Below are positions 55,632-61,148 of a stretch of 64,000 nucleotides of DNA, in pieces. Position 1 is the stretch's first letter, and every line of letters begins with the position of its first letter. Location: the NCBI GenBank assembly GCA_027943885.1, contig AP027078.1, positions 496,001 to 560,000 of the forward strand, read 5' to 3'. Source of the stretch: Candidatus Tyloplasma litorale (GTDB taxonomy: Bacteria; Bacillota_I; Bacilli_A; Mycoplasmatales; Hepatoplasmataceae). The notes below the pieces were generated by a model. It worked only from the letters and a program-made list of their open reading frames with translations. It was not told the DNA's origin and searched no databases. A program made the translations under genes and the position numbers.

Positions 55632-56912
55632 TTAATTCACCAATCTCTCTCTTAATTCATCTAATTTATTATAGTCCTTTTTGAGACTACTTTCCCTTAT
55701 TTCATTTTTTAATTCATTATATAAAATATTAAATTTAATTCCTAATAGAGAAAAATTAGCTATTATTTCCTCAACTATTTTCTCCTTATTGACTTTATTT
55801 TTATCTATGTTTAATATTTTTATTTGGTTTAAAATAAATGTAATTGCATTAGGAGTTTCCAAATTATTTGATAATATATCAACAAATTTTTTTGTTGGTT
55901 TTACATTAGATAATTTTCTCCTGTTTTTTTCCTTGGCAAGATTAATTAATGTTTTTCTTAATGTGTTTTTAACTTTATTTAACAAATTTTTTGCATTATT
56001 TATAACTTCCTCTGTTAAATTTATAGGCTTAGAATAACTTGTTAATAAATTAATAATTCTTAAAGTATTTGCTCCATATTCATTAATAAAATCAGTTGCT
56101 TTTATAAAATTTCCCTCTGATTTAGACATTTTTTTAGAATTAATATTTAATTGTCCTACATAAATTCATGATTTAGAAGTTTCTGAAAAATTGTAATAAG
56201 CTTCATATTGAGCCATTTCATTTATATGATGCGGAAATTTTAAATCAATACCTCCACCATGAATATCTAATTTTTTATCTCCAAAAAATTTTTTAATAAA
56301 ATAAGAACACTCAGTATGTCATCCAGGTCTACCTTTTGATCAAGGAGAATTTCAATTAATACCAATATTTGTCTTTTTTCAAATTACAAAATCTTCTCCA
56401 TGTTCTTTATCATTTAGAAAACTTTTTTTAATTAATTCACCAATATTAATTTCACCCAATTTACCATAATTTTTGAATTTTTTTATTGAAAAATAAACAG
56501 ATCCATTACTTTCATATGCATAATCTTTTTCAATTAAATCATTAATGAATTCAATCATGCCTTCAATATGTTCGGATACTTTAGGTAAATAAGTTGGTTT
56601 TTTTATATTTAACTTTTCTAATAAATCTAAATATATTTCAAAATTTTTATTTGTAAGTGTTATTTCTGGAATGTTTAATTCTAAAGAGCGATTTATTATT
56701 TTATCATCAACATCTGTTATATTATGAATAAATTCCACATTTTGTTTCAATGAAAGAACCTTATTCAAAACATCAAAAATTATAATTGGTCTCATATTGC
56801 CAATATGAGGTTCATCATAAACGGTAGGACCACAAAGATAAATTTTGACATTTCCTTTAAAATTTATTTCTTTTTTTGTATAAAAATCCAATAGATTCAT
56901 TTTAATTTCCAT
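55632..56912 (-). CDS. cysS: Cysteinyl-tRNA synthetase
   Basis: 426 residues with TGA as Trp. HIGH-type motif PHIGNMRP, zinc ligands at [14 protein letters not shown] and FPHHINE, and KMSKSEGN are all present; the helical anticodon domain follows. A downstream in-frame ATG (56900) giving [10 protein letters not shown], closer to the family start, is possible. It lies 6 nt after the OppF-like gene and directly before rlmB. Confidence 0.96.
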
Positions 56913-56918
56913 TCTATT

Positions 56919-59189
56919 TTATTTAGTTATTCATTTCTCAAAATCTCTACTTGATGAGTAAACTAAATGATGCTTTTCTGCTTCCCTTAATTTTAAATCT
57001 GTATATTGATTATAATAAAGGTTTTTATATAAATAATTATTGACTAAATTATTTTCTGTTTCTTCAATTAGATTTAAAGGTTTTTTTATTGCCTCTTTAG
57101 TAAAAGGATGTAATGGATTACATAATATTTTTTTTAAATTTCCAGATTCAATATTTGTACCCTTACTTATTATGTTGACGTTTTTTGCAAAATTTACAAC
57201 TGATCTAATATCTGTAGTTAATATTATGAACATTATTTTATATTTTTTAGACATTTTTCTAATAAATTTTTTAACTATTTCTGATTCTGGATCATTTGGA
57301 TTTGGATTGCTAGTTATTATTATTTTATCATTTTCAATAATGCCTTTCATTATTAACAAAATATGAATTTGAGAATAAGAAAGAGAATTTAAAGTTGTTT
57401 TTTCAAAATCATTTTTTAAATTTGAATCAATTTTTAAATCTTCTAATAATTTTTTCAAATTAAACCCAACAACAAAATTTAATTTATTTTTAATTTGCTT
57501 TAATTTTGATTTTTGTTCTTTTAATTTTTTTAATATTTCATTTTTAGCATTTATTTTTTCTTCAATTTGTAAAGGTGTTAAATTTCTAAAATTTATTTCC
57601 TTAATTTTTTTAGAGATGATTTTATCAACATTTATATCTAAAATATCATTATATTCCTTAAAGGATAATTGATTTTGATTTATTCTTTTAATTTCTTGTT
57701 TAGCAACTTCAATTTTCTTTTTCATTGCTAAAATTCTTGTCTTTTTTTCTAATTTAAGAGACATGTTTTTTCTATTTAATCTTCATTTATTTAAAGATAA
57801 ATCAATTTCTAAAAATTTATCTTCATATTCTTTATAAATATCAAAATATTCTGAAATGTTTTCATAATTATGAGTTCGTGTTGCTAAAATAAACTTATTT
57901 TTATATTGCTCTGTTATTTCTAATTTTTCTCTATAAATTTGTTTTTGAAATCTAAGAGAAATTGTTTCAAATTCTCATAATTTTCTCATATTATTATCTT
58001 TTTCTAATTTATCCATTGAAACAATTTCTTGAGCTTTTTTTTCTAAATCTTCAATAAATATTTTAAAATATTTAATTTTTTCATTTAAATCATCTTTAAT
58101 AAAAAATTCAACTTCTTTAAATTTAGGATTGTTTATCAATGAATATGGATCTATCAAATCATTTAAATATTTTATTCAAATATTTAAATTTAATTTAACT
58201 TCTTTAGGAGAATTTTGATCTAAATCAACATTATCAAAAATTCTTATGATATTTTTTAAAATAAAAATAAATTTATCTAAATTTGTTTTTTCTAAATTTA
58301 ATTTATCTTTTAATCTATTTAACTTAGTCAAATTATTTTTAGATAAATTTAGAAAATGCTCTTCATTTAAATTGATAAATCTTAAAAAAGCAAAAGCTTC
58401 TTTTAAAATTGTTTTTAAAGAAGATTTATGTATTTCTTCATTTTTAGAAAATAAATCAGAAGGAACACTTAATATTTGTTCTTCTTCCATTTTTAATTTT
58501 TCAATTAAAAATAATTTAGATTTAATTTGCTTTTTAATTAAATGATCTTTAGATAAAGTTTCAATAAAAAATAATTCTTTTGAATCAGCAATTTCCCTTT
58601 TTATTATTTTTATTTCATTTTTTGATTCCTTAATTATTGAATTAAATTTATTTATTTGATTTTGATTTTTTGTATAAATTTTTAATTCTTTAATATTTTT
58701 TGAAACATTATTTTTTTCAATTGAAATTTGATGACCGATTCATCATTTTTTATATTTATTATTAGATTTAAAATATTTAAGTTCAGAAATTAATTTAGAA
58801 ATTTCATTTTTTGTCTCTGAAATAACATCTTCATAAAATTTTTTTTGTAATTTACGATCTTTAATTCCTTCCAATAAGAAATTTTCCATAGTCATTTTAG
58901 ATGACAATAAATTTTCAATATTATTATTTTGAATATATGTTGTTCTATTTCTAGTGAATTTACCTTCAGCTTTAAAATACTCACCATTAAATTCAATTTT
59001 TCCATAATAATTATGATTCTTTTTTTGAATTAATTCAACTATAGTTTTAAATTCTAAAGCACTTTCAGAAACAATTGCAGAAATATCATTTTCATTAAAC
59101 TCTAAACTTAAAGATTTTAAAATCTTTAAGTTTGTTTTTAAATTTTTTTTAAAAACATTAACATCAATAAATTTAATTTGTTTTTCCAT
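56919..59189 (-). CDS. Degenerate OppF-like ABC protein with ~500-residue coiled-coil insert
   Basis: 756 residues with TGA as Trp. The two ends match an oligopeptide ABC ATPase: LSLEFNENDISAIVSES then GKIEFNGEYF at the start, and SLSYSQIHILLIMKG, IIITSNPNPNDPESEIV, IMFIILTTDI and CNPLHPFTKEAI (the C-terminal oligo-HPY region) at the end. But Walker A is SESALEFKT, Walker B has SN in place of DE, the signature GG is lost, and the switch His is Thr, so ATP hydrolysis is very unlikely. About 500 Lys/Glu/Ile-rich residues, predicted long coiled coils, separate the halves. It follows a 57-residue membrane protein by 4 nt. Confidence 0.75.
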
Positions 59190-59193
59190 AATT

Positions 59194-59367
59194 TTATGAA
59201 CCACCTAACATTACAATAAGAATTATTGATATTGATATCAAAAAAATGAATAAAAAAACGAAAAAAATATATTTGAATATTTTTCATTTTACTCTTAAAG
59301 GATCATATTTTTTTTGTGTAATGATCATTTTTTCTATTGCTTTTGGATAATCTTTATATTTTGGCAT
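59194..59367 (-). CDS. 57-residue single-pass membrane protein
   Basis: Hidden by a TGA Trp codon. A charged N-terminal half (YKDYPKAIEKMIITQKKYDP) is followed by a single helix (IFKYIFFVFLFIFLISISII, about 32-53) and a GGS end. The layout resembles SecE, but a genuine secE is at 53971. It starts 1 nt after the ECF S-component stop and ends 4 nt before the OppF-like gene, so it may anchor that protein at the membrane; this is inference. Confidence 0.7.
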
Positions 59368-59368
59368 T

Positions 59369-60262
59369 TTATCTTTGAGTGTTTTTCATTGCGAATTGTG
59401 TAAGTCTAATTAATAAAAAAGAAATAATTGCGACTAAAGGTATTAAATAAGTTGATCTTAAAATTCTTGTATAAAGAGCTAATAAGTAAGATTTTTCATA
59501 ACCTGAAAAATATTGAGTAAAAGGCCTTATCACTAATTCCATCATTCTTTCAGAAAATGAAACACATAAAATTAACATTAATAAAATTATTTCTTTTCCA
59601 TTTAATTTGTAATATCTTATGTATAACATCATTAACTCAATAAAAATAAATGATGTTATTGAAAAAAATAAAGCTTTTTGAAATTCCTCTTCACTTATTG
59701 AATTACCATTTATATTTACATTGGTTAAAAAAATTTCTAAAGGAATCATAATAAATAAAAGTGAAATTGCTATAACTTGAAAAATTAAAATTGATTTTCA
59801 AATAGGAATGTCTTGAACTTTTTTATAAATTACACCAAATAAACCAGATATTAAACCAATCATAGGAAACATTAATGAAGGCAATACTTCATAACTTCAT
59901 CCATGAATTAAGGTATTAAGTGAATCAGCTATTCAACCAAATAATATGCCTTCTAATGGTCCAAAAATAAATCCAACAACTATTGTTGTAACACTATCAA
60001 CAGATGGTAAAAAAGGAATATCTGCTGTTATTTTTGTTAAAAAAGCTTGAACAAGAAATATTGCTAAAAAAGTTGCTAAAATTGTTATTTTTTTTATTGT
60101 TAAAAATTTTTTATTATATTTTCTATAAAAAAATATTGAGATTATTATACTAGAAATTAAAATTAAAAGCATAATAGAAGTTAAAACACCCCAAATTATT
60201 CATGTTGTAGGGTTATGATTATTATTTATTGTATATGAAATAATATTATTTGTTTTTTTCAC
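59369..60262 (-). CDS. ECF transporter S component (vitamin uptake)
   Basis: 297 residues with TGA as Trp. It is an integral membrane protein with about seven or eight helices. The S-component signature is in ITILATFLAIFLVQAF, DIPFLPSVDSVTTIVVGFIF and GPLEGILFGWIADSLNTLI. S components bind a vitamin (folate and riboflavin types are common in Mollicutes) and work with the EcfA/A'/T module, not present in this window. At nearly 300 residues it is longer than the usual 170-200, with an extra N-terminal helix and a longer C-terminal half. The start is GTG at 60260-60262 (a second GTG follows), overlapping whiA by 17 nt. Confidence 0.78.
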
Positions 60263-61148
60263 CACCTGTATCTTGATTTGCTAAATCAACCATAATTTTT
60301 AATCAATTACTTATTGTAGATTTTGATAATTCTAATTTATATTTTTCTTCATATTTTATCATTAAAGAAGAAAATGAAGAAGAAGGATTTTCTACTCTTA
60401 ATTCAGCAAGTCATTTTTGTTTTTCATTTAATTCTAAAAATTTTTTATTTTTCTTTATTGCTTTGATTGCTTTTATTTGCAATTTAGATGTCTCATTGGA
60501 CTTCTTAATATTATGATACTCTATTGAGTCCATTTTTTTTAATGTAGATATAAAATCTCTATTTATTCTTTGATCTTCAAAAAACATAACTGATTGTGAA
60601 GCATTCATTAATTTTAAAACATTTGCAATATCTGTTGATTTTTTTATATATGTAAAATACCATTTATTTTTTTGAATTGTCAAAGTTTTGATTCCAACAC
60701 CCTCAAATATTTCTTGAATATCTAAAGAATGATATAAATTTCTAACTCTTACTTCAAAATGAAATGAAGTAGATTTCGGATTTGAAATTCAACCTTTAGC
60801 AATGAATAAACCTGATATATATGCTTTATGATCATCTCTTGTTTTTGCAACTAAATTTCCCAATCTTTTTGTAAATTTAATTAAAAATTCAGGATCATAA
60901 ATTTCATATTTTATTAATTTTTTAGTTTTAATTGCCTTAGGTGAAATATTAAAAAATTCTTGAAACATCTTATTAAAGAAATGTTCTCATTCTTTTAATG
61001 AACTTTTAACAATATATCCTCCACCAGAATAATTTCCATTTGCTCTTAAAAATGAATAAAATAGAACTTTTAATTGTTTATTTTCCCATTTATATTCTAA
61101 AATTTCATTTTTTACAAAATTAGAAAAAGAATTTCCATATTCTTCCAT
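60246..61148 (-). CDS. whiA: DNA-binding protein WhiA
   Basis: 300 residues. It has an N-terminal LAGLIDADG-derived domain (NEILEYKWENKQLKVLFYSF, then FIAKGWISNP) and a C-terminal helix-turn-helix (WLAELRVENPSSSFSSLMIK, then LSKSTISNWLKIM), the standard WhiA end. In Gram-positives it affects division and chromosome behaviour. It lies 4 nt after trxB and overlaps the ECF gene. Sequence conservation is weak, as usual for Mollicutes WhiA. Confidence 0.85.

Follow-up and report, generated by a model that had tools for sequence, protein, structure and literature searches.

Can the gene for a transporter ATPase be retained after both the transporter and the motifs for ATP handling have gone, and what could it then be doing? 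This question is raised by a 756-aa open reading frame (ORF) in the genome (AP027078.1) of Candidatus Tyloplasma litorale Fukuoka2020, which lives as a symbiont in the gut of the isopod Tylos granuliferus (PMC10928387, Table 2). The window analyzed here is the whole 64,000-nucleotide stretch from position 496,001 to 560,000 of that contig. The ORF starts with ATG and, read with code 4, contains six TGA codons for tryptophan; at this composition, a stop-free run of 756 codons would arise by chance with a log10 P of approximately −33. The gene order in the window, all on the minus strand, is lgt, trxB, whiA, an ECF S-like gene (ECF_S), a gene for a 57-aa protein, the 756-aa ORF, cysS, and a trmH-like gene. 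From whiA to trmH, neighboring genes overlap or are separated by a few bases, which gives the stretch an operon-like layout. The features of the locus, in window coordinates, were as follows.

60246–61148, minus strand: whiA, the upstream anchor of the locus (profile matches, synteny)
59369–60265, minus strand: ECF transporter S-component-like protein, ECF_S (folT family profile, E = 3e-6)
59194–59367, minus strand: 57-aa single-pass membrane protein, in the same orientation as the 756-aa ORF and 4 nt upstream of it
56919–59189, minus strand: dead OppF remnant, 756 aa (ORF and translation, motifs, hhalign against live family OppF)
58908–59189, minus strand: N-terminal ABC lobe, residues 1–94 (alignment boundaries; LolD profile at 10–92)
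59046–59069, minus strand: Walker A position, reading SESALEFK (motif alignment)
57429–58907, minus strand: long helical, partly coiled-coil insert, residues 95–587 (alignment to live family OppF; heptad patches)
57693–58031, minus strand: best conserved section of the insert, residues 387–499 (window z-scores)
56922–57428, minus strand: C-terminal ABC lobe with oligo-HPY-like tail, residues 588–756 (NCBIfam, motif alignment)
57099–57110, minus strand: HPFT
56931–56969, minus strand: H-x-V-Y...W tail motif
55632–56912, minus strand: cysS (tRNA-synt_1e, 6e-98), 6 nt downstream of the 756-aa ORF

Profile searches placed both ends of the protein among ABC ATPases. In NCBIfam, the N-terminal part matched LolD at residues 10–92 (5.9e-6), while the C-terminal part matched NikD (E = 7.7e-9, best stretch 639–702), CntF (602–707, 2.1e-6), and the mollicute OppF family NF043078 (642–752, E = 5.8e-6). 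The sole PDB match below E = 0.001 was the peptide-transporter ATPase 4fwi (2.8e-6). Against the live, catalytically intact OppF of the same family, P = 2e-9 was obtained for the N-lobe and P = 2e-22 for the C-lobe, and both lobes were homologous to ABC_tran. The Pfam search with E up to 1 placed neither end: PF00005 gave no match, and the sole match was V-SNARE_C at 0.048. An earlier note, made from the letters alone, had recognized N- and C-terminal ABC segments with an oligo-HPY tail, and the NCBIfam, PDB, and profile–profile searches bear it out; the profiles, Pfam apart, did not fail on the termini.

None of the five catalytic motifs was present in the protein. Walker A has changed from GESGSGKT to SESALEFK, the Q-loop from FQNP to QNNN, the signature from FSGGQ to LSYSQ, Walker B from FIVADEP to IIITSNP, and the switch from ISHD to LTTD; still recognizable were HPYT, as HPFT, and the C-tail H-x-V-Y...W. 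The motif alignment included 14 live OppFs from the order, and in all of them Walker A, signature, and Walker B were intact (G006 lacked the switch His). All 23 dead proteins aligned were without any catalytic motif, and they kept the tail H and mostly the W. The loss of Walker A, signature, Walker B, and switch His, proposed earlier, was thus confirmed by the alignment, with the Q-loop gone as well. Against the NF043078 equivalog profile, the protein scored 25.2 bits with a cut-off of 800, below which the live relatives of the family also fall. Descent from oppF was evident from synteny and from an end-to-end profile alignment, and nothing near the cut-offs for OppB, OppC, or OppD was encoded in the 615,622-bp single-contig genome. 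The 756-aa ORF derives from oppF, and it has been retained with its ATP-handling motifs lost.

Comparison with relatives revealed what has happened around the gene. In G004, a relative of the same family, the order is lgt-trxB-whiA-ECF_S-oppA-oppB-oppC-oppD-oppF-cysS, and in G003 and G006 oppABCDF likewise adjoins cysS. The flanks in the window are identical in order to those of G004; oppA to oppD are missing, and the dead ORF occupies the oppF slot. The whole genome gave 85.5 bits (cut-off 740) and 71.7 bits (cut-off 800) as the best scores for OppD and OppF profiles, and had just four BPD permease domains at two loci, both of which look like phosphate systems judging by PhoU- and PstB-like sequence. 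In each of these phosphate-type transporters, one ORF holds the two permease domains (L089:4335-6530, 731 aa; L090:4046-6142, 698 aa). Judged by synteny, the 756-aa ORF is the remnant of oppF at the ancestral opp locus after the loss of oppA–D. The earlier note was right about a full-length frame beside essential genes, here 756 aa within an operon, but it missed that this frame sits in the oppABCDF slot of relatives.

Between the lobes lies an insert of 493 aa (residues ~95–587) with 1.5% Pro+Gly. Heptad patches were found at residues 123–154, 173–207, 287–322, 483–524, and 546–575, and heptad-positive windows made up 7% compared to 2 ± 2% in shuffled sequences. The insert is predicted to be helical with discontinuous coiled-coil stretches, not a single continuous coiled coil; of the coiled coil of about 500 residues suggested earlier, the helical insert of that size stands, but its heptads are patchy. 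Single-sequence AlphaFold2, run without an alignment, gave pLDDT of 39 and 36, too low for the models to be of use. Residues 387–499 were the best conserved, with z-scores per window reaching 7.4 against G002, a genome of the same genus, and 3.7 against the live OppF of G004; the rest of the insert was poorly conserved.

The layout with an arm between two ABC half-domains is shared with SMC and Rad50, and the protein could be imagined as an independent machine of that type made from OppF, with heptad patches near both ends of the insert and an SMC-like position of the insert between the N- and C-terminal lobes. SMC heads, however, bind and hydrolyze ATP and the arm carries a hinge or hook, whereas the window protein has no ATP motifs, hence no ATP-dependent head, and no recognized hinge. 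No match to SMC_N/SMC profiles was obtained for the 756-aa protein at E up to 1 in Pfam, and none appeared among the NCBIfam families listed. Moreover, a long insert separates the Q-loop from the signature in all live OppFs of the order (676–897 aa), and in the catalytically intact OppFs of the own family it measures 391–457 aa at the same place. By hhalign, the dead pair of the window and G002 aligned with four live Hepatoplasmataceae-like OppFs with a score of 254 over 694 columns (residues 5–755); aligned alone, the insert matched only the live insert of its own family, and weakly (P = 9e-4). Working transporter OppFs already having the insert, the SMC-like layout was inherited and not newly assembled, so the earlier proposal that an SMC/Rad50 plan had been built here falls, and an SMC-like machine is scarcely credible.

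The remnant was compared with G002, which encodes a dead homologue of 750 aa that is 27% identical along its entire length (BLASTP 1e-32). The locus there runs whiA-ECF_S, with oppA–D deleted too, followed by the dead protein and then a permease-like gene in place of cysS. At the position of the 57-aa protein, G002 has a homologous single-pass protein of 59 aa (score 60 compared to 30 ± 5 for shuffled sequences; N-terminal halves alone, p = 0.0015). One pairwise match of the 57-aa protein to OppB of G006 was seen (55 compared to 29 ± 5), and reading it as a stump of OppB or OppC found no support in profile–profile comparison (P = 0.001 over 13 columns). A small membrane protein of 150–180 aa often follows live mollicute oppF genes (L132:3255-3803, L135:5759-6220, L228:8852-9316).

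With every catalytic motif gone, the gene could be a pseudogene in slow decay, in which oppABCD were deleted, oppF is drifting, and stops have not yet been acquired. The 27% identity to the G002 homologue is the lowest among the neighboring genes compared, and broken copies exist elsewhere, e.g., at L140:3098-5346 (G204), where a dead OppF before valS is split into two ORFs of 502 and 191 aa and gives a picture of decay without constraint. Yet third codon positions have come close to saturation between the two species (excess identity 0.11), and both still have approximately 750 codons open where, at this composition, about one codon in ten would be expected to be a stop; dead forms are also full length in dozens of species of a second family (f8) and lie within a ValS polypeptide in one genus. 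In a codon-position test for purifying selection, codon-shuffled controls were nearly equal (27% compared to 28% identity); since the test failed its control, the case for selection rests on the open frames and the recurrence. Searching genome contigs with the single protein returned nothing, and an alignment query returned generic ABC ATPases. The two open frames and the dozens of f8 species point to retention under selection, and the decay reading is judged improbable.

The recurrence extends to f8. The dead OppFs of this family make up the NCBIfam family NF045976, "MAG1360 family OppF-related", which exceeded its cut-off in 58 of the 298 genomes of the order. The ancestral arrangement, ECF_S-oppABCDF-153aa-valS, is seen in G073; among the 42 f8 loci read, ECF_S preceded the dead OppF in 26 and valS followed it in 11. 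One genus (g12) carries a dead OppF in 24 of 24 genomes, and in all eight of its loci read the dead OppF runs in frame into ValS (ValS profile, 957 bits); in seven of these the locus contains the entire ORF, and there the ValS part is complete (~840 residues). The fusions, 1615–1646 aa where complete and downstream of an ECF S-like gene, were located as follows.

L125:2322-7262, dead OppF–ValS fusion
L126:189-5054, dead OppF–ValS fusion
L127:2766-7625, dead OppF–ValS fusion
L128:192-5081, dead OppF–ValS fusion
L129:2497-7344, dead OppF–ValS fusion
L130:1-4424, dead OppF–ValS fusion, running off the locus
L131:2815-7683, dead OppF–ValS fusion
L226:1114-5982, dead OppF–ValS fusion

The ECF S-like gene upstream of a dead OppF at L104:463-1494 also matched NF009461 (aspartyl/glutamyl-tRNA amidotransferase subunit C-like protein, E = 4.8e-8), and an ORF resembling the GatB C-terminus, judged by eye, lies nearby in g12. 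Together, these two may represent a recurrent tRNA-aminoacylation context around dead OppF.

The window protein resembles the MAG1360 proteins as a catalytically dead OppF with a large insert and a conserved tail, and an ECF S-like gene often precedes the MAG1360 genes too. The MAG1360 proteins appear to have arisen independently, since they come nearest to live OppF from their own family; at the 200-bit cut-off of NF045976, no match was found in the window genome, and G002 reached 58.2 bits. The window protein stands as a distinct example of this kind of remnant. The g12 fusions likewise have an insert-bearing dead OppF preceded by an ECF S-like gene, but they continue in frame into a complete valyl-tRNA synthetase. 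Compared with mollicute OppF (NF043078, MMSYN1_0168; live in G003, G004, and G009), the window protein has the same two lobes, insert, HPY, and C-tail, the same slot between ECF_S and cysS, and a profile alignment from end to end, whereas the five catalytic motifs of mollicute OppF are absent and no OppA–D was found in its genome.

A further instance occurs in Hepatoplasma-like genomes. In G005, G007, and G008, ECF_S is followed by an OppD-like protein of 300–301 aa and an OppF-like protein of 745–748 aa, oppA–C are gone, and Walker A is absent from both proteins. The dead pairs after ECF_S were found at the following loci.

L245:3567-6728, dead OppD-like and OppF-like pair
L246:3188-6342, dead OppD-like and OppF-like pair
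L248:3101-6254, dead OppD-like and OppF-like pair

The OppD-like proteins scored 144 over 283 columns against the live OppD of the family, and the OppF-like proteins scored 85 against live family OppF and at most 33, not significant, against the window protein. G009, of the same genus, has kept oppB, C, D, and F, with no oppA seen at the locus (L247:596-5898); its OppF has an intact Walker A together with a degenerate signature (FPNSI) and switch (TND), and may represent an intermediate stage of decay.

These cases could derive from a single ancient dead OppF paralogue that predated both families and gave rise to the window protein as well as to MAG1360. All dead proteins fell on one side of an unrooted tree (98/98 with motif columns, 69/53 without), and the families are probably sisters, Hepatoplasmataceae being reported as sister to Metamycoplasmataceae (PMC10928387). 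Nevertheless, the dead pair of the window and G002 scored 254 (694 columns) against the live OppF of its own family compared to 164 (169 columns) against live f8 OppF, and the dead f8 sets scored 287 and 265 against their own family and 150 and 154 against the other. A clade of live and dead Hepatoplasmataceae-like OppF was not rejected in the tree without motif columns (p-AU 0.417), and live oppF occupies the same slot in both families. A common dead ancestor is disfavored and quite unlikely. For each dead group the best match along the whole protein was the live OppF from within its family, which argues for separate losses, at least three by these comparisons; the tree without motif columns neither favored nor rejected this.

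The association with ECF_S suggested another role, that of a silent regulatory nucleotide-binding domain (NBD) that partners a second ABC ATPase or is seated beneath an ECF S component. In the window, G002, G005, G007, G008, and the 26 f8 loci mentioned above, ECF_S is the next gene upstream or is separated by one small gene, and a dead OppD and a dead OppF are both kept in the Hepatoplasma-like genomes, as if they were still dimerizing. However, ECF modules normally use EcfA1/A2/T, and ECF_S also stands beside complete live opp operons, so its adjacency predates the decay and may be inherited rather than functional. It was present in 10 of 10 genomes of the family and in every genus, live or dead, and hence shows no signal of co-loss with dead OppF. 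A silent NBD is considered unlikely.

The reading that we prefer, at a probability of about one half, is that the protein is a decayed but selected oppF remnant serving as an ATP-independent coiled-coil scaffold or tether. Once oppA–D were lost and oppF remained at the ancestral locus, the insert and C-tail of mollicute OppF, which may already have had a role without ATP, would have been left with that role alone. The two ABC lobes would form an inert head and the insert an arm, with the conserved tip (387–499) and the C-tail binding partners. The protein would then be a cytosolic, membrane-proximal scaffold or tether, which the 57-aa single-pass protein may anchor at the membrane. Candidate partners are the ECF S-component-like neighbor and, in view of the dead OppF–ValS fusion in one f8 genus, the translation apparatus. 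Against this reading, the insert is poorly conserved outside 387–499, the adjacency of ECF_S may be inherited, and the neighboring aminoacyl-tRNA synthetase gene is not constant: it is cysS in one family and valS in f8, and G002 has none next to the remnant. Full-length survival and independent repeats in related mycoplasmas make it probable that the helical arm performs a task in its own right. Recruitment as a scaffold had been suggested in the earlier note; a non-catalytic role is indeed judged probable, and its particular function is what we infer. More tentatively, the insert and tail of mollicute OppF may hold a second, ATP-independent function that has survived loss of the transporter at least three times, with a link to translation through ValS.

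Peptide-transporter ATPases with inserts are already known, and NCBIfam already names the f8 remnant family (MAG1360) without giving a function. No paper on the MAG1360 family was found, and among open-licence papers none was found on dead OppF, the dead OppD–OppF pair, the recurrent pattern, or the ValS fusion. The Tyloplasma genome paper, in the part consulted, reports at least five ABC systems with substrates undetermined, and no statement on the 756-aa gene was found there (PMC10928387).

The repeated retention draws attention to the large, unexplained insert of mollicute OppF as a candidate module with a function, and a comparative set is at hand, comprising live OppFs, dead OppFs, a dead pair, and a dead OppF–ValS fusion. 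It also calls for caution, in that an "OppF" annotation in a mollicute does not guarantee peptide import. A transporter motor that has repeatedly outlived both its channel and its catalysis is a natural experiment, indicating that part of the protein is worth keeping in some of the tiniest known genomes.
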